From a virus, in the IMG/VR virus record IMGVR_UViG_3300030331_001645, positions 1 through 20,419 of that record: a stretch of DNA of 20,419 nt. The stretch is one strand, 5' to 3'. The notes below the pieces were generated by a model, which saw only the letters and a list, made by a program, of their open reading frames with translations, did not search any database and was not told where the DNA came from. A program made the translations under genes and the position numbers. Below, in pieces: positions 845-8,800 of this stretch (the stretch's first letter is position 1; every line of letters starts with the position of its first letter).

Positions 845-1117
845 ATGGAAGAACTAGAAGAAGAAAAACAAAGGCCGAATATTGTTGCAACTTTCGTTCA
901 ACTTGTCGTTCTTGGGTGGTCTTTGGCGGTTATTTCTTGGTCATACTATAACCCGAACCCTGTAAGACAAATTGATACCACCTTTGCCGCAGGCTTGCTT
1001 TCGGGCGTCCTTACGCAATTTGGAGTTGACCTGAAAAGTAAGAATAATGACAAAAAAAAGTTAAAAGGTAAAGTAGATATAGTAGACAACAAAAACTCGA
1101 AAGTAGGTATCAAATGA
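845..1117 (+). CDS. Single-pass membrane protein, holin-like candidate, 90 aa
   Basis: First gene of a four-gene plus-strand operon; AAAAGG lies just upstream of the ATG. The N-terminus is short and acidic (MEELEEEKQRP). A membrane segment follows at about residues 13-33 (IVATFVQLVVLGWSLAVISW), then a weaker hydrophobic stretch at about 46-60 (FAAGLLSGVLTQFG), and the C-terminal third is very lysine rich and hydrophilic. Small size, one or two membrane segments and a charged basic tail are holin-like, but no endolysin is visible next to it, so lysis is only one option. From memory, close relatives occur in marine cyanophages, usually unnamed. The stop overlaps the next start (ATGA), so translation should be coupled to the secreted proteins downstream, which suggests an envelope-related role. 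Confidence 0.6.
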   Translation: MEELEEEKQRPNIVATFVQLVVLGWSLAVISWSYYNPNPVRQIDTTFAAGLLSGVLTQFGVDLKSKNNDKKKLKGKVDIVDNKNSKVGIK

Positions 1118-1623
1118 AAAAATTACTTTCTATTTTATTTTTGCTTCCTTTGCCTCTGCAAGCGGGCTATATCCACAAAATTACGGCATCAGCGCAAGGC
1201 GTGGTTGATGGTAGCTATTCGCAGGCAAAACGAATCGGCTCAACCTATTCGATGAGTTCGACAGGGATTACAGCGGGAACAATGGGGCATCTTGATTCGC
1301 CCGCACTAGATAACAGTTCAGTATTAACAGGCGTGGCCGCAACACACGGAACAGGGTCTTATACTCAAACCACAGCGGGCGCCGCAACAAGTTTTTCAGA
1401 ATCATTTATTCAAGGGGATGCGGTAACTACAACGGCAAGCGTTTCTTCTGGAATTGTCTCTTCTTTACCAGTAACAGGCGACACAATCACATATTCAGGC
1501 GGGTCTAATACAGGGCAATCAATAGGAATCACTTCAGTAGCAGGCGGAACTATAACATTAAGCCCCGGCGCGGCGGGAACAAGTGTAACAGGTTCAATAA
1601 CAAGTTCTATCGAAATCGAATAA
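1114..1623 (+). CDS. Secreted Ser/Thr/Gly-rich protein with Sec signal peptide, 169 aa
   Basis: Function unknown. Residues 1-17 form a typical Sec signal peptide: MKK, a leucine-rich core, and cleavage predicted after LQA. The mature part is dominated by Ser, Thr, Gly and Ala, has no cysteine, and looks like a beta-rich extracellular fold. Residues 87-102 (TAGAATSFSESFIQGD) match residues 105-120 of the next gene's product. The C-terminal ~65 residues (ITYSGGS..GQSIGITSVAGGTITL) form a further beta-rich unit that the next protein lacks. It starts by ATGA overlap with the membrane protein and its TAA overlaps the next ATG. I recall similar unnamed exported proteins in T4-like cyanophages. Secretion from the infected cell, or a virion or envelope decoration, are both possible. 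Confidence 0.7.
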   Translation: MKKLLSILFLLPLPLQAGYIHKITASAQGVVDGSYSQAKRIGSTYSMSSTGITAGTMGHLDSPALDNSSVLTGVAATHGTGSYTQTTAGAATSFSESFIQGDAVTTTASVSSGIVSSLPVTGDTITYSGGSNTGQSIGITSVAGGTITLSPGAAGTSVTGSITSSIEIE

Positions 1624-2060
1624 TGCGGCGCTTATTTATAAGCCTTTTTTTATTCTCCAGTTCGCCCTGTTTTGCTATTCCAGTTATTCCTAATTTTTCG
1701 GCCGGAAGTTCTATATCTCGAACAACAAGTTCACAATCAACACGGGAAATAATTCAGTCTTATTCTTATTCTACGGGGTATCAGTACACAACAGGCGGAA
1801 CCAATGTCGAAGCGGTCACGGCAGGCGGAACGATCAGTCCTGAAGCGATTGCAGGGGCAACACAAACAATTAACGGCGTTACATCAACAACAACAGGAAT
1901 AAATTTGACTACTAAACCCCAATGGAAGCAATCGACAGCAGGCGCGGCAACTCAATTTCACGAGTCGTATATTGGGCCGGGGCTAAATTCTTATGTCCAT
2001 ATAGACCGCACTATTGAAGTTCAATCTGTAACTGAATCAACGTCCACTTTTACACAATGA
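1623..2060 (+). CDS. Secreted protein with Sec signal peptide, 145 aa
   Basis: Function unknown. A signal peptide is clear (MRR, a Leu/Phe-rich core, Ser-rich region, predicted cut after CFA at residue 18). The mature protein starts IPVIPNF and is Thr/Ser rich. The block TAGAATQFHESYIGPG at residues 105-120 matches the preceding secreted protein, which suggests a distant paralogous pair. The remaining tail (RTIEVQSVTESTSTFTQ) is a predicted beta region. The only cysteine lies in the signal peptide. The ATG overlaps the preceding stop (TAATG) and the gene's own stop overlaps the next start (ATGA), so the three secreted proteins should be made in a fixed ratio. I recall unnamed relatives in cyanophages. 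Confidence 0.7.
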   Translation: MRRLFISLFLFSSSPCFAIPVIPNFSAGSSISRTTSSQSTREIIQSYSYSTGYQYTTGGTNVEAVTAGGTISPEAIAGATQTINGVTSTTTGINLTTKPQWKQSTAGAATQFHESYIGPGLNSYVHIDRTIEVQSVTESTSTFTQ

Positions 2061-2767
2061 TAAAAAAATTTAAGATAGCAGGCGCAATATTATTTTTTTC
2101 TGTCCAGTTTCCAACTTATGCCAATACCAATATGACAAATAATCCAGTATCAAATTCGTCTGGAAGCGTTACAAATTTAGGCGTGATGAATATGCCGACA
2201 AGACAATTTCAAAATCAAGTCGGCGGTAATACTGTAGTCTGTCAATCTGATACTTTAGTTATCCAGCCTTTTGTCACTTCTTCAGCTTCATTTACAAAAC
2301 CTTATCAAGACTATTATCTAGACCCTATATATTCAGTAAAAGATACAGAAGGCGCGACAGATGCAAACGGCGTAACTATAGGCGATGGCGACCCCGACAA
2401 CCCCGGCCAAATTATCGGTTATAAAACAATAAGAACAGCGCAAAAAGATACATATAATATTTCGCCGGGAATCAGTTTATCTTGGAATATTTCACTTGAT
2501 CGTAAGGCAGTCAGGTTATGCCGCGAAGCGCAACAAAGACAATCAGATTTAATTCAGGCAAGAATAAACGACAATATGTACGCGCTTGAACTCGGACGTT
2601 TGAAAACATGCGGCGATCTTTTATCTAAGGGGTATAACTGGAAAAAAGGAACAAAGTACTATAAATTATGCGAAGATGTCGAATTAACAAATCCAAGCAA
2701 TACGTTAATTAATCATCAACATTCTTTGAAAGAAGTTTCTGTTTCTTCAAACGAGAAGAAGAACTGA
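2057..2767 (+). CDS. Secreted protein with four cysteines and Sec signal peptide, 236 aa
   Basis: Function unknown; last gene of the plus-strand cassette. A signal peptide covers about residues 1-22 (MIKKFKIAGAILFF..., cut after TYA). The mature protein has exactly four cysteines (C62, C155, C185, C205), an even number compatible with two disulfides after export. An acidic turn-rich stretch at residues 109-117 (GDGDPDNPG) could bind calcium. The N-terminal part is Asn/Ser rich. Residues 148-190 form a charged helical segment (LDRKAVRLCREAQQRQSDLI and onward). The 3' end overlaps the convergent Ile-Pro-rich gene by 59 bases. I recall a similar family, including the DPDNPGQI stretch and the late Cys residues, among cyanophage hypothetical proteins; this could not be checked here. 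Confidence 0.7.
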   Translation: MIKKFKIAGAILFFSVQFPTYANTNMTNNPVSNSSGSVTNLGVMNMPTRQFQNQVGGNTVVCQSDTLVIQPFVTSSASFTKPYQDYYLDPIYSVKDTEGATDANGVTIGDGDPDNPGQIIGYKTIRTAQKDTYNISPGISLSWNISLDRKAVRLCREAQQRQSDLIQARINDNMYALELGRLKTCGDLLSKGYNWKKGTKYYKLCEDVELTNPSNTLINHQHSLKEVSVSSNEKKN

Positions 2768-3437
2768 ATTTAGTTCCTGACTTTTTGCCAATTAGTTTTT
2801 TTGCGCGATTTATTATCTGTTTAAATATTGGTTTTAGCAGTCTTGTCAAAAAAGGCGTAGCAGTTGCGGCGGATGTTGCGACAATAGTTACCACTAAAGT
2901 CGTTGCTACTACGGAAGACGAGGGAAGGTTTCTATCGACAAAATTAGTTTTACCCCATAATTCCACACATTTTCCATTTATTACTTCAAAGCCGACAACT
3001 TTTTCTTGCGCCTCTGCGTTTCTTAGATCATTTAATCTGAATCGTTGGTTTTTCGCAGGGCAATCAATTTCTTTTTCTTCAATAACGTTATTATCATTAT
3101 TTTCTTTTGTTTTTGGAATTTCTGGCGTTTTTATATCTGGTATTTCTGGCGCTTCTGTTTTGGTGTTTTGTTTTGGTGTAATTATTTTTGCAGATGGCGA
3201 ATAATCAGGGGCAAAATAAAATGGTGCGGTGTGATCACATAAGGCAACATTTCCATCGGGGTCGTTATTAAAATGATCTTTACCACCTGTTAGAGAATCG
3301 CGTACAACAGCGCAAGGCGCATCAATAACAGGAACGCCCATATCAATAGAAACAGGCGTATCAAGGACGATAGGCGGTTCAATATGGATAGGTTCTGGAA
3401 TATGTATGTTGGGAATATTAATTTCTGGTATTTCCAA
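2709..3437 (-). CDS. Ile-Pro-rich protein with C-terminal membrane segment, 242 aa
   Basis: Function unknown. The N-terminal ~30 residues are a beta-like Ile-Pro repeat (EIPEINIPNIHIPEP...), with a second proline-rich linker at about 95-110 (EAPEIPDIKTPEIPKT). A middle domain (about 120-170) carries cysteines and a conserved-looking CPAKNQRFRLNDLRN...CVELWG segment. A hydrophobic segment at about 175-200 (SSVVATTLVVTIVATSAATA) precedes a strongly basic C-terminus. The start is a TTG three bases after the upstream stop, with no clear Shine-Dalgarno, so coupled re-initiation or frameshifting from the upstream gene is possible. I recall unnamed cyanophage proteins of the same build. The 3' end overlaps the convergent secreted-protein gene. 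Confidence 0.7.
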   Translation of the reverse strand: MEIPEINIPNIHIPEPIHIEPPIVLDTPVSIDMGVPVIDAPCAVVRDSLTGGKDHFNNDPDGNVALCDHTAPFYFAPDYSPSAKIITPKQNTKTEAPEIPDIKTPEIPKTKENNDNNVIEEKEIDCPAKNQRFRLNDLRNAEAQEKVVGFEVINGKCVELWGKTNFVDRNLPSSSVVATTLVVTIVATSAATATPFLTRLLKPIFKQIINRAKKLIGKKSGTKFSSSSRLKKQKLLSKNVDD

Positions 3438-3439
3438 AA

Positions 3440-3637
3440 TTAAAATGGAATTACGTTGCCTGTTGTTTTTGGTATTTTGGGAACTTCTGGTAAGGGTATT
3501 TTATCAATAACTTGTTGAATCATTTTTTCTTTGAAATCATCACTTGTTACCATCATGTAACCATAGACGCCCGCGCCTAACATTGACGCGCTGATTATAA
3601 AACTTAAAATAGATAATATTTGAGAAATCCTTGCCAT
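3440..3637 (-). CDS. Small membrane protein with Ile-Pro tail, 65 aa
   Basis: MARISQILSILSFIISASML begins a single hydrophobic segment (residues ~5-30) that ends in YGYMMV. It is followed by a charged helix (SDDFKEKMIQQVIDK) and a proline-rich tail (IPLPEVPKIPKTTGNVIPF). The tail resembles the Ile-Pro start of the next gene (2709-3437), and the two are separated by only two bases, so they probably function together at the membrane. The ATG at 3637 is preceded by a weak AGTAGGG. A TATAAT-like box lies about 40 bases upstream on the minus strand. Role unknown; from memory it resembles a small gene that accompanies the Ile-Pro-rich gene in other marine cyanophages. Confidence 0.7.
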   Translation of the reverse strand: MARISQILSILSFIISASMLGAGVYGYMMVTSDDFKEKMIQQVIDKIPLPEVPKIPKTTGNVIPF

Positions 3638-3764: not shown

Positions 3765-3957
3765 CTTTTTCTTTTATCTCTTCTTTTTCAAAATTTTCAA
3801 GTTCAGCAATTCTTTCTTGACAAGAAAAAATCTTCATTTTAATAGAATCACGAGCAGTTACTAGCTCTTGAATTTTTTGTTGAATTTTGTTGCCTTCATC
3901 AATTGCAACTGTCATGTCTAGTTTGATCTGATCTATTCGTGTTAGTTTTTTTGACAT
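3757..3957 (-). CDS. Small coiled-coil protein, 66 aa
   Basis: No known function. The whole protein is predicted helical with heptad-like spacing (IDQIKLDMTVAIDEGNKIQQ, then IQELVTARDSIKMKI and ERIAELENFEKEEIKEK), suggesting a short coiled coil that oligomerises. A single cysteine sits near residue 47. Its start overlaps the stop of the gene upstream (stop-start at 3957), so it is translationally coupled to the 95-aa protein and is at the distal end of the tail-gene transcript. It could be a fibre-associated or chaperone-type protein, by position only. Confidence 0.65.
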   Translation of the reverse strand: MSKKLTRIDQIKLDMTVAIDEGNKIQQKIQELVTARDSIKMKIFSCQERIAELENFEKEEIKEKVN

Positions 3958-4244
3958 TATTCAGATGGTTTGTCTGCTATCAGTTTAGCCTTCCACGCAG
4001 CTTTGACATCATCAGTCCACGCAGCGTTACATATTGCAGATACTTCGGCTGGCTGTGCTGATAAATCAGTATCTACTAGGTTATCAGAATCATCTAACGT
4101 ACCAGCTTGCAGTACATATCTTTCAAAAGATCTTGTTAATTCGTTGCCATCTTTTTTAATGACTGTTGCCTTTCTTATTTGCACCGCTTTATAAATGCCC
4201 ACGACCTCTATCTTGTCGTATTCGATTGACTCTGTAAGTGCCAT
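3957..4244 (-). CDS. Conserved phage hypothetical protein next to tail fibre, 95 aa
   Basis: The start at 4244 has CGGAG about a dozen bases upstream. The N-terminal half reads as beta strands (IEYDKIEVVGIYKAVQIRKA, then TVIKKDGNELTRSFERYVL). The C-terminal half is helical and ends with a charged segment (AICNAAWTDDVKAAWKAKLI). From memory, close relatives occur right after tail fibre genes in marine phages, where they are unnamed; I know of no demonstrated role. It sits between the tail fibre and the coiled-coil gene, so involvement in fibre assembly or attachment is a reasonable guess. Confidence 0.7.
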   Translation of the reverse strand: MALTESIEYDKIEVVGIYKAVQIRKATVIKKDGNELTRSFERYVLQAGTLDDSDNLVDTDLSAQPAEVSAICNAAWTDDVKAAWKAKLIADKPSE

Positions 4245-4300: not shown

Positions 4301-5815
4301 CTATGAAGTGAAATAATGTCCATGTAGGTCAAATCGACCTGCCGCTTGTGCTAGATTAGTACCTAAAAAGTTATTACCATCAGTTTTAAAAAATTGGAGA
4401 TGGGATGAACCGGGACTTTGAAATATTGTTGGTAAATCTGCAGTATCGGAAAAATATCCAGTTGTGAAACCATAAGAAGCACCACCTGCTGTTGCAAAAC
4501 TGCTAAAATTTCCAGACGTAAATGGTAAATTGTTTATTTGTAAACTACCACTTTTAAGAGTTCCAGATGATACTTGTAATTTAATTATAAAATGAACAAC
4601 ATGACCGACTTTTCTATATACACCAACTTGTGATGAATAACTTACCCCACTATCATAACAAGCACTTGAAGCAGAACCAGAGTTAAATTCTGGACTGAAA
4701 GTTCCCTCTTCATAATCGTCAAAAAGCTCACTTGTTCCTGTTCCAGAGGTAGCACTAAAGTCAATACCTTTACCAGAAGTTCCAATTACGAGGTTTCCAG
4801 TATGTATAGTTACATTACCACCTGAAGCCTCTGTGTCTATTGATAATCTATCAACACGCGAACCTCCAGAAAATTGATCTATCCTAAATGAGTTATCACT
4901 TGCTCTTGCTTCAATATTGTATTGGTCTATATGGTCATCTCCATCATCAGAAACTAAACTTAATCTTGCGTCTTCTCCTTCGCTACCAATAACAAGTATT
5001 CTACCTTCGCCAGAAGCTGGGATAAGATTAAGTGTACCAGAATCATAAGTCAATTCAGATTCACCTTCTAAAGTATTAGCACTTCCAGAACCAGTAATAA
5101 CTCTGTTATTTGCGTTGTTATTTATTGTTGTACCACCAACCCCTGTAAGGGCAGAGCCGTCTCCAGAAAAAGCTGTTGCCGTTAATGTTCCATTAGAAGA
5201 ATTAAAAGATAGATTTGAACCTGACTTTGGCGGTAGGTCACCTGTTGCTGCTGTTACAAATAAAGGAAAACAAGTTGTATCTGAAGATTCATCTGCGACA
5301 GTAACATTTGTAGAAGCAACACCCGCTATGACCGTATTTAAAGCCACACCCGCAACAGTAATTGCATCAGCTTCTAAAGTTCCGTCAAAATCCCCATCAA
5401 CGGCGTCTACATCACCGACAAAAGTTGTTGCAGTAACATTTCCTGTAACTGTCAAACCAGAGGAAGAAAAACTTCCCCTTGTGGTTCCTCCGCAAGTTAC
5501 ATCGACAGTATCAGCCGCACTTGAAAAAATACCAGTATTTAAATCATCCCTAAAACCTAAAGCGGGCGCACTTGCAGAACCATCTTCAAGCGTCAAAGTT
5601 CCGTCAAGTTGCAATAAAGTTACCCACCCATCGTTTGAACTATTTCTTATTTTTAAAACGCCTTCATTTGTATCTGCCCACCATTGATAAGCGTATTTTG
5701 TAGAAGGTTCAGTTGATGATGAATTATTACTTACAATCGCGGCCAAAGCATTGTTCAGGTCTGAACGAAAATTCGCCCCTGTGGCATTATCTAGAACATA
5801 ATCATGCGTTGCCAT
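4301..5815 (-). CDS. Tail fibre protein, 504 aa
   Basis: The N-terminus (MATHDYVLDNATGANFRSDL, then NNALAAIVSNNSS and YQWWADTNEGVLKIRN) is a signature I associate with the attachment end of cyanophage tail fibres. It is followed by EDGSASAPALGFRDDLNTGIF and long low-complexity Ser/Thr/Gly/Asp strands such as GLTVTGNVTATTFVGD, typical of trimeric beta-structured shafts. The C-terminal ~130 residues (from about YEEGTFSPEFNSG) form a distinct, aromatic-richer domain likely to bind the host or carry a tip fold. No S74-type chaperone motif is seen. It lies immediately after the J-like gene, the usual fibre position. A weak TAAAAATA-like element (minus strand, 5824-5831) precedes it, and its ribosome-binding site is poor. 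Confidence 0.85.
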   Translation of the reverse strand: MATHDYVLDNATGANFRSDLNNALAAIVSNNSSSTEPSTKYAYQWWADTNEGVLKIRNSSNDGWVTLLQLDGTLTLEDGSASAPALGFRDDLNTGIFSSAADTVDVTCGGTTRGSFSSSGLTVTGNVTATTFVGDVDAVDGDFDGTLEADAITVAGVALNTVIAGVASTNVTVADESSDTTCFPLFVTAATGDLPPKSGSNLSFNSSNGTLTATAFSGDGSALTGVGGTTINNNANNRVITGSGSANTLEGESELTYDSGTLNLIPASGEGRILVIGSEGEDARLSLVSDDGDDHIDQYNIEARASDNSFRIDQFSGGSRVDRLSIDTEASGGNVTIHTGNLVIGTSGKGIDFSATSGTGTSELFDDYEEGTFSPEFNSGSASSACYDSGVSYSSQVGVYRKVGHVVHFIIKLQVSSGTLKSGSLQINNLPFTSGNFSSFATAGGASYGFTTGYFSDTADLPTIFQSPGSSHLQFFKTDGNNFLGTNLAQAAGRFDLHGHYFTS

Positions 5816-5849: not shown

Positions 5850-8800
5850 CTAGGAACCGCGCCCAAATCCGACAGCGGTATATCTAAAATTCCTATCAAC
5901 AAAACTTGAACCATTTTTAACATCTATATCAAAGCCGCTTCCGGTAATGTTGTGAAGGCTGAAAAAATCCCCGCTTTCCATATTTTCAAGAATAATTCCA
6001 ATTGTTGGAAGATGTGCTGTTGTTGACCCGCCAAGTTCAGAAGTACCCGTAAAAAAGGTATTTATGAAAGAAACCGATTTGCGAGAAGTCCCTGAAGCAA
6101 TAACGGCTGTCGGCGACTCTGTTCTTCTTATTAAATTTGCAGAATATCCAAGTTCTTTGATTAAAATACTTTGTGCAGGGTCATCGCTTGTTAATTGTGT
6201 TCTAAATTTAAAACCTCTACCGATAAAAGTTCCATTTGCCATCGGCTCAAATGGTGTGAAATTAGCCCCGTAAGTGCAATTTCCGCTTGTTGTCTGACTT
6301 GTAGTTCCTGTCAAAACAAAATCATTTACACTTCCTGTACTTTGAATAACGTATTCGCCATCAATACCTGTTCCGCTAGTAAAATCAACAACAATAACAT
6401 TTCCCGCTACATAGCCGTGATTTGCTTTTGTTATTACAATTTGTGTTCCAGTTTGGGCGTAGGTTGCCGAAACCGATAAGTCAGGGTCTAAATCTGTTAT
6501 TGCAACAAGTAGCTTTGCGTTTGTATCAAAGGCCGTTTGAGCGTCAATATCTGTCCAAACATCAATTAAAGCTGTTCTTGAATCAATTAAATCATTAGGA
6601 TAAAAAGATTCTGTAACCATATGACGGGTCAGATTCACGACTTGTTTTGCGCCAAAATCAACATTACTTACAAAATCATATTTACCAGAAGAAGCAATAT
6701 CGCCAAGAAAATCAATTGAAGATAAAGAATCAATTAAACCTACGGAATCAAGCTCAGTCGTTGACCCAAGCACTAGGCCACTTAAATTTGAATCAAAAAA
6801 TGTATTTGTTTTTGCACCATTAAAAGGTGTTGCGTCAGTATCTTCTCTATCTGTAAGAATTGCAAGTTTGGGTACCGCATCAGGGATTGTAACAACAACT
6901 GAAGTTTCGCCAGAACTAAGACGTCCGCCGTCATCGCGGAATTTGAGAATATATTCCCCTTCAATAGCGGGGACAAGTGTTTCTGATACGTTACCCGGTA
7001 GGGCGGGAATAATATCAACAGAATTTGTAAAAGTGCCTGTTCCATCCGTCAAATTACTGTGCCTGACTACAATGTTGCCGCCGTGGGTCACGTCAACGTC
7101 TGTTGCTTTATCAAAGCGTAATCTTACAAATTGATCGTTTACAGGTTCAACAGTTACATTTGAAACGTCTTGTGGAAGTGCAGTTTTTCCAACAGCTTCA
7201 AAAGTAAGGTCATTTGAAGTTGCTGAAAGTTGCCCGTTTACGTTGTAGCTAAAAACTTGAAATTCATAAGTTCCAAGCTGACTATTCATTATTTGAAAAT
7301 CAGGTCTTGAAACTCTTTCTGTGAAATAGTTACCATTTTCAAAACGATAATTAACTTGATACTCAATGACACCGACTATTGGCTGCCAACTTAAAAATAT
7401 TTTTGATACGGCCTGATTGTTAATCGGAACGATTGTTTCAACGGCTGAAAGATTAGAAGGCGGCGGCTGTAGCTCATTTAATTTTGAAACTGTTCTTGTT
7501 GGTAAAGATGCCCCATCTTCAATAAATGCGTATTTTTCATTTATGTAAGATAAAGCTGTAATTGTATAATTTGTTGAATCTGTTTCTTCAACTGTTATTA
7601 CTCTAAATTTTTGCGCTTCAACTGTTGAATTTTGAATTAAATAGATTGTGTTTGCATTTGGCGTCTGTGAAAATGCTTCAGAAACAGTAACAACGCCATT
7701 TGTAATATCTGAAATATCTTTTGTCTCAACTGTGCCATCAGGCAAAATCAGAGATAAAGTCGGACTGTTTGTTGTGGGTAAATCTGTATTTTCTGTATCG
7801 TCAACTGTAACAACTGTTGTTGAAGTAACGCTTTTAAGTCTTCCTGAACGCCTAACACCCGCGCGAACAGGGTCATTGATACTAATAACAGCGCCCGGCC
7901 TACACATCAAACCGCCTTCCATTGATGTAGTAAATGTCACTAATTCACTTTCATTTGCTTCTGAAAATGCAATTGCTTTTGCCAATCTTTGCGCTTGACC
8001 CCGCGATGTACACGCGAAACCTTTTACTTGCTTAACGACAGTTCCAATCTTTGCTGAAAGTGTGGTATTTTCAAAAACTTCGTAATCTATATCTTGCGAA
8101 TCCATATTGTAATAACTGACAGATATTACAGAATGTCTTTGCTTCAGACTTGAACCTGAATAATTGAAACCATCACTTGAAATATTGGCGAGTGAGAAAA
8201 GGAAAGAAGAATCTTTTGGGGAATCTTGAGCAAGTAAAATACTACCTGTTGACCATATCGGCATACAACGCATGACACCCGCAAGTTCATTTATTAAATC
8301 AAACGCGGAACTTGAAGATTGAATATTTACGTTACATGAGAAGCGCGCCTCCTGTCCGCCAAAACCGTCATCAACAAGAGTGTTTGCAAATTTTGATGCG
8401 GTTACAAAAGAAAACAAGTCAAGGTTTGAATCTGCAATATGCGTTCCAAATCCATATCTTTCTGTTGTCAAAAGATCAAGCAAAATCATCGAAGGGCATG
8501 AACACCAAGTCGCGGCCTGAAAAGTACCTCCAAATATATAGCCGTCAGGATAAACAATCCGGCCTGTTGCAGAATCAACAGTTGGCGTTCCTGAACTAGA
8601 AGCGCCTGCGCCCGGAATCCTTACTTTGATACCGCGGATACGGAATTTACGGCGTGGAATTGAACTGAACTGTTGAGAATCAAGCCTTATTGCGTTATAT
8701 GCTGAGTTTGCATAAGTACTTGCATCATCAATTATTTCTGCAAAACTGGCAAATTGAAAAGAATCTATTAAAGATGAATCTGTTGAATCTGCGGTAACTC

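Follow-up and report, generated by a model that had tools for sequence, protein, structure and literature searches.

A gene cassette of marine cyanophages found in three tail morphotypes and at endolysin loci: a candidate lysis module

What task do four joined plus-strand genes, one for a small membrane protein and three for exported proteins, perform in a cyanophage? The question is raised by positions 845-2767 of an IMG/VR fragment of 20,419 bases (IMGVR_UViG_3300030331_001645), the whole of which is here called the window. An earlier note, made from the sequence alone, had treated these genes (g1 to g4) as a unit. The block proved instead to be one plus-strand arm of a convergent cassette of six to seven genes, completed by the minus-strand genes r1 and r2 and often by a third, left_m. 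As judged from sequence matches, the cassette occurs in myo-, sipho- and podoviruses of marine picocyanobacteria, and it replaces the endolysin locus. For the phages listed as spanin-less, we see about an even chance that it is an envelope-disruption (lysis) module standing in for that locus.

Occurrence in three tail morphotypes

The window is a fragment of a KBS-S-2A/P-HS2-like cyanosiphovirus. The major capsid proteins of KBS-S-2A, S-H1, P-HS2/MED4-184 and MED4-117 are 72-76% identical to that of the window, whose structural genes lie on the minus strand, from the right end up to a tail-fibre gene (4301-5815). The siphovirus P-HS2/MED4-184, with a capsid protein 72% identical to that of the window, has an unannotated cassette of hypothetical proteins (MT490303, 3331-6332), which follows the same order (left_m, g1, g2, g3, g4, r1, r2) beside tail genes and encodes proteins 28-51% identical to those of the window.

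Relatives in T4-like cyanophages, which the earlier note had mentioned, are real: g4 is encoded in 420 public phage records and g3 in 407, and a profile-guided scan of IMG/VR matched at least 593 relatives of g4. The cluster as such is already known and is not new here. Sullivan et al. found T4-GC 218, 219, 234, 235 and 237 clustered in every one of 16 cyanomyoviruses but S-PM2, in many cases together with a "plasmid stability" protein; the genes were guessed to be functionally linked and mobile, and no function was assigned (Sullivan et al., 2010; PMC3037559). In Syn1, GC237-236-235, equivalent to g2-g3-g4, face GC234-219-414-218, equivalent to r1, GC219, r2 and g1. The window's g4 and g3 are 40% and 50% identical to those of Syn1 and its g2 is 34% identical to that of S-SM1, in the same order on one strand, and its r1 (phrog_570) and r2 (phrog_568) converge on g4 as do the GC234 and "plasmid stability" genes of the cluster. 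By these common gene families and the convergent order of g2-g3-g4 and r1-r2, the window cassette belongs to the T4-GC cluster, as a siphoviral version. It differs in that GC219, one of the five clustered genes of Sullivan et al., had no match in window-type siphoviral loci, g1 comes first in the plus-strand arm, the start of g4 is at the g3 stop instead of inside g3, and left_m adjoins. Siphoviral loci run left_m (-), g1 (+), g2 (+), g3 (+), g4 (+), r1 (-), r2 (-), whereas T4-like loci run g2 (+), g3 (+), g4 (+), r1 (-), in some cases GC219 (-), r2 (-), g1 (-). Thus g1 switches arms, standing at the far end of the other arm in T4-like phages. Co-occurrence and kept order of the genes had been put up for checking in the earlier note, and among the loci taken from IMG/VR the arrangement of g2-g3-g4 facing r1 was essentially invariant wherever the flanks were present.

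The crossing of morphotypes that had been suspected for a siphovirus is seen in P-HS2 and extends, beyond that guess, to T7-like podoviruses, in which weak g4 matches were found first and then pursued with profiles. Profile searches found left_m, r1, g1, a g3-type protein and g4 in S-SBP1, in the uncultured phage S28-C3 and in P-SCSP1g, and assigned genes 042-045 of P-SSP7 to the r1-g1-g3-g4 families; the P-SSP7 record annotates one transmembrane region in 042, two in 043 and a possible signal peptide in 044. Searching with a podoviral g4 extended the matches to 435 records, among them 9515-10a, P-SSP2/3/10, S-RIP1/2, KBS-P-1A and the P-SCSP1 series. Unlike the window, P-SSP7 has all its cassette genes on one strand and a single g2/g3-type protein, and no r2 was detected in it. 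The P-SCSP1g cassette has the convergent layout of the window, and the two also have in common pieces of tail fibre alongside and the gene r4 (window 3957-4244, minus strand), which is 70% identical to its P-SCSP1g counterpart (L158 5211-5504) and lies beside tail fibre and cassette. These common features suggest that a tail-fibre-plus-cassette block was exchanged between podovirus and siphovirus morphotypes. The literature searched, which included few subscription journals, held no account of the function of the cassette or of its sharing across morphotypes; podoviral presence, the replacement of endolysin loci and the overprinted start of g4 (below) were not found described there and are new in this sense.

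A host origin was considered and rejected, since contig scans of 84,980 species genomes gave no host homologue and only apparent phage contigs in unrelated assemblies, on phage-sized contigs of ~189 kb. Such apparent cyanophage contigs (L143-L150) occur in assemblies labelled Lewinella, Formosa, Euryarchaeota, Nonlabens, Chloroflexota and others, and likely represent contamination or co-sequenced phage. The same scans bear on the idea that the exported proteins support photosynthesis or nutrient supply by acting in the thylakoid lumen or periplasm, like cyanophage plastocyanin or PstS. Although petE and psbA or pstS are found close to the cassette of Syn1, S-SCSM1 and S-SM1, auxiliary metabolic genes are normally host-derived, and with neither a host homologue nor a cofactor-binding domain we regard this explanation as decidedly improbable. 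Movement between positions and phage classes would also suit a selfish or mobility cassette kept through its "plasmid stability" protein, an idea put forward for T4-like cyanophages (Sullivan et al., 2010; PMC3037559) and repeated for S-SCSM1. However, r2 is a single-helix membrane protein not recognisable as a toxin-antitoxin or partition protein, and the podoviral copies examined gave no r2 match yet keep the rest, which leaves this explanation very improbable.

Replacement of endolysin loci

In all three phage classes, the cassette stands where relatives without it have hydrolases. In the T4-like Syn1 it directly follows nrdA-nrdB-GC846. In S-PM2, the cyanomyovirus without the cluster (Sullivan et al., 2010), this site encodes a C39 peptidase together with a phage lysozyme (PF00959, E = 6.5e-10) and an RlpA-like lytic transglycosylase. 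S-B68 has an endolysin after GC846, S-CREM2 has a C39 peptidase and two lysozymes, and in S-N03 and S-H34 a GC846 homologue adjoins an endolysin. The interval between tail fibre and small terminase of T7-like phages holds the cassette in P-SSP7 and an endolysin in P60 and S-CBP42. T7 carries a lysozyme gene between gp3 and gp4, and in P-SSP7 these two genes are directly adjacent with no lysozyme gene between them. Among siphoviruses, an endolysin follows the tail fibres in KBS-S-2A, and the cassette follows tail genes in P-HS2 and the window. The endolysin loci of P60, S-CBP42, KBS-S-2A, S-B68 and S-PM2 thus share genomic slots with the cassette but consist of recognisable GH19/C39/lysozyme hydrolases and contain no cassette genes.

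Among 23 records searched whole, g4 was present in 10, an endolysin (GH19-like or C39/lysozyme) in 10 others, and both in none (Fisher P = 0.0004, with seven endolysin genomes picked for having endolysins and kinship not corrected). When only genomes not chosen for endolysins were compared, an endolysin was present in three of six cassette-less genomes (S-PM2, PSS2 and KBS-S-2A, the negatives being S-CBS4, Syn5 and S-H1) vs. none of the 10 cassette genomes (P = 0.036). Those cassette genomes that were tested for five types of hydrolase yielded no dedicated endolysin. In a related, near-complete siphoviral contig of 37.9 kb (G001), Pfam likewise gave no recognisable endolysin except an NlpC/P60 domain expected in a tail protein. 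We consider this complementary distribution of cassette and endolysin genes suggestive rather than conclusive.

The endolysin-bearing phages yielded observations of their own. Four of them (three podoviruses and one siphovirus) have in common a small hydrophobic protein with an ASE-IG-SKLK-NS motif (L160 34317-34547, P60 gp39; L003 6269-6418, KBS-S-2A CPKG_00007; L162 20575-20808; L163 3045-3206). It lies near the endolysin in three of the four and is a candidate holin of an alternative lysis locus. P60 gp38 (L160 34061-34324) is a small transmembrane protein with a probable coiled coil and has homologues in S-CBP42, Syn5, S-B28, S-B68, S-N03 and S-H34; the family is found near the small terminase or the endolysin and weakly matches the Rz-like spanin family phrog_739 (E = 0.03). 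S-SBP1 gp50 resembles P60 gp38 by eye.

A possible role in lysis

A lysis role is proposed because the cassette occupies slots in which cassette-less relatives have endolysins. Kongari et al. list P-SSP7, Syn1, Syn33, P-HM1, P-HM2 and S-SM1 as spanin-less, speculate that the host outer membrane is fragile, and suggest as a possible i-spanin an inner-membrane protein of type I whose helix is C-terminal (Kongari et al., 2018; PMC6139136), a description that r1 fits. Lysis by cyanophages is one of the main ways in which the carbon that Prochlorococcus and Synechococcus fix reaches the ocean. The gap in its genetics is that most cyanophages are listed as spanin-less by Kongari et al. (2018; PMC6139136) and that the cassette genomes tested have no detected dedicated endolysin. 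If the lysis reading is correct, the replacement of endolysin loci by one cassette across three classes of phage makes this gap a testable genetic question and provides a role for DUF6450, DUF6322 and several large PHROG families of unknown function in more than 400 phage records. Read as a lysis module, the cassette is probably how most picocyanobacterial phages break out of their host.

Under the lysis reading, a mobile cassette of six to seven genes would breach the host envelope at the end of infection. The two-helix protein g1 would act in the inner membrane in a holin-like manner. The r1 protein would be a type I inner-membrane protein whose proline-rich N-terminal rod spans the periplasm, with r2 as a small type II membrane partner. 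After Sec export, the predicted beta-rich proteins g2, g3 and g4 would assemble with r1 and r2 into a complex reaching and disrupting the outer membrane, a spanin-like role. The cutting of peptidoglycan might fall to hydrolases of the tail or the host, or to an activity of the cassette as yet unrecognised. Like the two-component spanins (Rz/Rz1), the cassette combines membrane and exported partners, a proline-rich periplasmic segment, overlapping genes in different frames and the position of a lysis locus. Unlike them, it has no lipoprotein and no coiled-coil type II i-spanin, has more components and shows no sequence match; in comparison with a canonical i-spanin, r1 is predicted to be type I with a C-terminal transmembrane helix, and r2, though predicted to be type II, is short and proline-rich. 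We tentatively suggest, with less confidence than in the lysis role itself, that the cassette may represent a new type of lysis system, in which a proline-rich type I membrane rod acts with small membrane proteins and with beta-rich exported proteins bearing disulfides, in place of holin, endolysin and spanin. Such a system would be common to three morphotypes, be interchangeable with endolysin loci and end most cyanophage infections.

Several observations weigh against a role in lysis. No cassette protein matched a known holin, endolysin or spanin family in Pfam and PHROG searches, and because of this we infer the function and mechanism, including all interactions, the topologies of r1 and r2 and the targeting of the outer membrane. 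No Pfam peptidoglycan hydrolase was found in any cassette protein, fold searches with g3 and g4 gave no significant match, and g2-g4 have no lipobox, as their leader ends (LQA/G, CFA/I, TYA/N) lack a cysteine at +1. Syn5, S-CBS4 and S-H1 have neither the cassette nor a detected endolysin, and S-SM1 has its cassette at another place, between regA and hsp20. Since cyanophage cargo slots are variable, the shared position could reflect a cargo hotspot. Finally, hydrolase domains occur inside long, probably tail-associated open reading frames (ORFs), a lysozyme in S-SM1 and M23 in Syn1; these may supply cell-wall cutting, but do not constitute a dedicated lysis gene.

The main rival, next after lysis, is superinfection exclusion or envelope remodelling, in which the exported proteins would cover or obstruct the periplasm or outer membrane of the infected cell and keep competing phages from adsorbing or bringing in their DNA, with r1, r2 and g1 as anchors. 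A set of exported and membrane proteins with no enzymatic signature would suit this role, as would presence in most T4-like cyanophage records and in sipho- and podoviruses of the same hosts, a distribution to be expected under competition among many phages, and the swapping of g1 between near-identical neighbours. Yet exclusion gives no need to occupy endolysin slots in three morphotypes or to be absent when an endolysin is present, and exclusion proteins are usually encoded by one or two genes, not by a conserved set of five to seven. We therefore consider exclusion unlikely. Of the roles that had been offered for the block in the earlier note (envelope remodelling, superinfection exclusion and lysis), position favours the last; that preference rests on position, and the function is inferred.

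The tail fibre genes that neighbour the cassette in the window, in P-HS2 and in podoviruses, together with long beta-strands in the g3 model, would also agree with exported proteins that later bind released particles or form phage surface appendages. However, Sec leaders send proteins away from the cytoplasm, where virions assemble. In S-SM1, whose virion proteome has been measured, all seven cassette proteins are still called hypothetical or plasmid stability, a hint, though no proof, that they went undetected. Such a virion or adsorption accessory is, in our estimate, improbable. ORFs 174 and 176 of S-CREM2, detected by mass spectrometry and similar to g3 and g4 in length and order, were tried as virion relatives and were unrelated by translation and tblastn.

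Cassette genes and an internal start of g4

The four plus-strand ORFs were recovered with the coordinates and the ATGA, TAATG and ATGA junctions reported before: g1 and g2 overlap by ATGA, g2 and g3 have in common the TAATG at 1621-1625, and g3 and g4 overlap by ATGA. With phage protein families matching each at E values of 1e-11 to 1e-58, they are real genes. The first, g1 (845-1117; 90 residues; T4-GC 218 type), belongs to DUF6450 (PF20048, E = 2.3e-11) and is probably a small membrane protein of holin size with a two-helix hairpin. Hydropathy peaks at residues 13-32, followed by a weaker second segment and a basic C-terminus, and for the homologue in P-SSP7, PSSP7_043, the annotation reads "2 transmembrane regions predicted by TMHMM". 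The protein thus has a holin-like size and topology (small, one to three transmembrane helices, charged C-terminus); it matched no holin family, only DUF6450 and unknown PHROGs. The gene is swapped: in loci ~97% identical in g2-g4, g1 was only 38-45% identical or not detectable.

The exported proteins are g2 (1114-1623; 169 residues; T4-GC 237 type; phrog_564, E = 4.3e-27), its distant paralogue g3 (1623-2060; 145 residues; T4-GC 236 type; DUF6322, PF19847, E = 1.5e-27; phrog_650, E = 4e-37) and g4 (2057-2767; 236 residues; T4-GC 235 type; phrog_848, E = 3.4e-58). Their predicted leaders end at LQA/GYI, CFA/IPV and TYA/NTN, respectively, and have a basic N-terminus, a hydrophobic core and small residues ahead of the predicted cut. 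The Sec-type leaders claimed for them were borne out as signal-peptide-like by a simple n-h-c rule, applied to homologues with complete 5′ ends and passed by 101/101 for g2, 82/116 for g3 and 50/130 for g4. Failures were mostly myoviral, with the leader start outside the tested region or the h-region after an acidic residue; those of g4 were T4-like copies with the real start further upstream. The four cysteines pointed out in g4 are invariant in all 75 aligned homologues, and g4 also has a C-terminal HxH. An AlphaFold2 model of g3 (predicted local distance difference test, pLDDT, 85; predicted template modelling score, pTM, 0.49) has two strands of 24-25 residues. In the weak model of g4 (mean pLDDT 64, pTM 0.28), residues 44-124 are beta-rich and a helix of 42 residues follows. 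Neither protein had a significant match among solved structures by PDB sequence search or Foldseek, and the g4 model matched only homologues in BFVD. The best-ranked folds for g3 were tail proteins and beta-barrel pores, with E values no better than 0.05 and template modelling scores ≤0.25, and were not used as evidence.

On the minus strand, r1 (2709-3437; 242 residues; T4-GC 234 type; phrog_570, E = 8.8e-35; TTG start as listed) faces g4 with an overlap of 59 nucleotides (nt). It consists of a proline-rich N-terminal domain (median 12.5% proline), a hydrophobic helix in the C-terminal half and a strongly basic tail, the latter two found in 117/136 homologues; its topology is probably N-out/C-in (type I). 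Next to it, r2 (3440-3637; 65 residues; T4-GC 414 type; phrog_568, "plasmid stability", E = 6e-9) has an N-terminal transmembrane helix and a short proline-rich tail by hydropathy of 112 homologues, and is probably N-in/C-out (type II). For a single-helix membrane protein of this size, the "plasmid stability" label looks misleading. Divergent from g1, left_m (620-832; 70 residues; phrog_2738/phrog_402, E = 1.3e-20 for phrog_2738; TTG start as listed) encodes a small amphipathic protein; it is conserved beside g1 in P-HS2 (51%) and P-SCSP1g and lies near the cassette in S-SBP1 and S28-C3. A scan for promoters and terminators found sites no more frequent than in shuffled sequences.

Another feature of the cassette is the start of g4. 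In the window and other siphoviral copies with a readable start, a g4 ATG or GTG overlaps the g3 stop (in the P-HS2 copy the start was unreadable by the same approach, as frame assignment differed). T4-like copies have GTA or ATA at that position and an ATG for g4 inside g3, in the other frame, 163 nt upstream in 65/77 sequences, 166 nt in two and 169 nt in nine; the remaining row, at 136 nt, is the misassigned P-HS2 copy and not T4-like. From the internal ATG the g4 frame is open throughout. A GGAG lies 11-14 nt ahead of it, its bases matched in 77, 76, 62 and 76 of 77 sequences. The g3 valine codon overlapping the ATG is GTG in 75/77, vs. 101/518 GTN codons elsewhere in g3, and the base providing the A of the ATG is A in 77/77, though the g3 residue varies among Ser, Thr, Lys, Gln and Arg. 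From the conserved GGAG and ATG, the GTG bias and the invariant A, it follows that T4-GC235 very probably starts inside g3 and is translated with ~54 extra residues ahead of the hydrophobic leader. One such g3/g4 overlap is L001 7853-8019, and nothing comparable exists at window 2057. A -1 frameshift fusing g3 and g4 in T4-like copies, considered given the missing start at the g3 stop, was ruled out by the conserved GGAG and ATG inside g3. In Syn1, the annotated g4 start (locus position 8064) falls after the leader and would miss it. In podoviral copies, the nearest in-frame start of g4 lies 109 nt inside g3 in 3/4 and 53 nt inside in P-SCSP1g.

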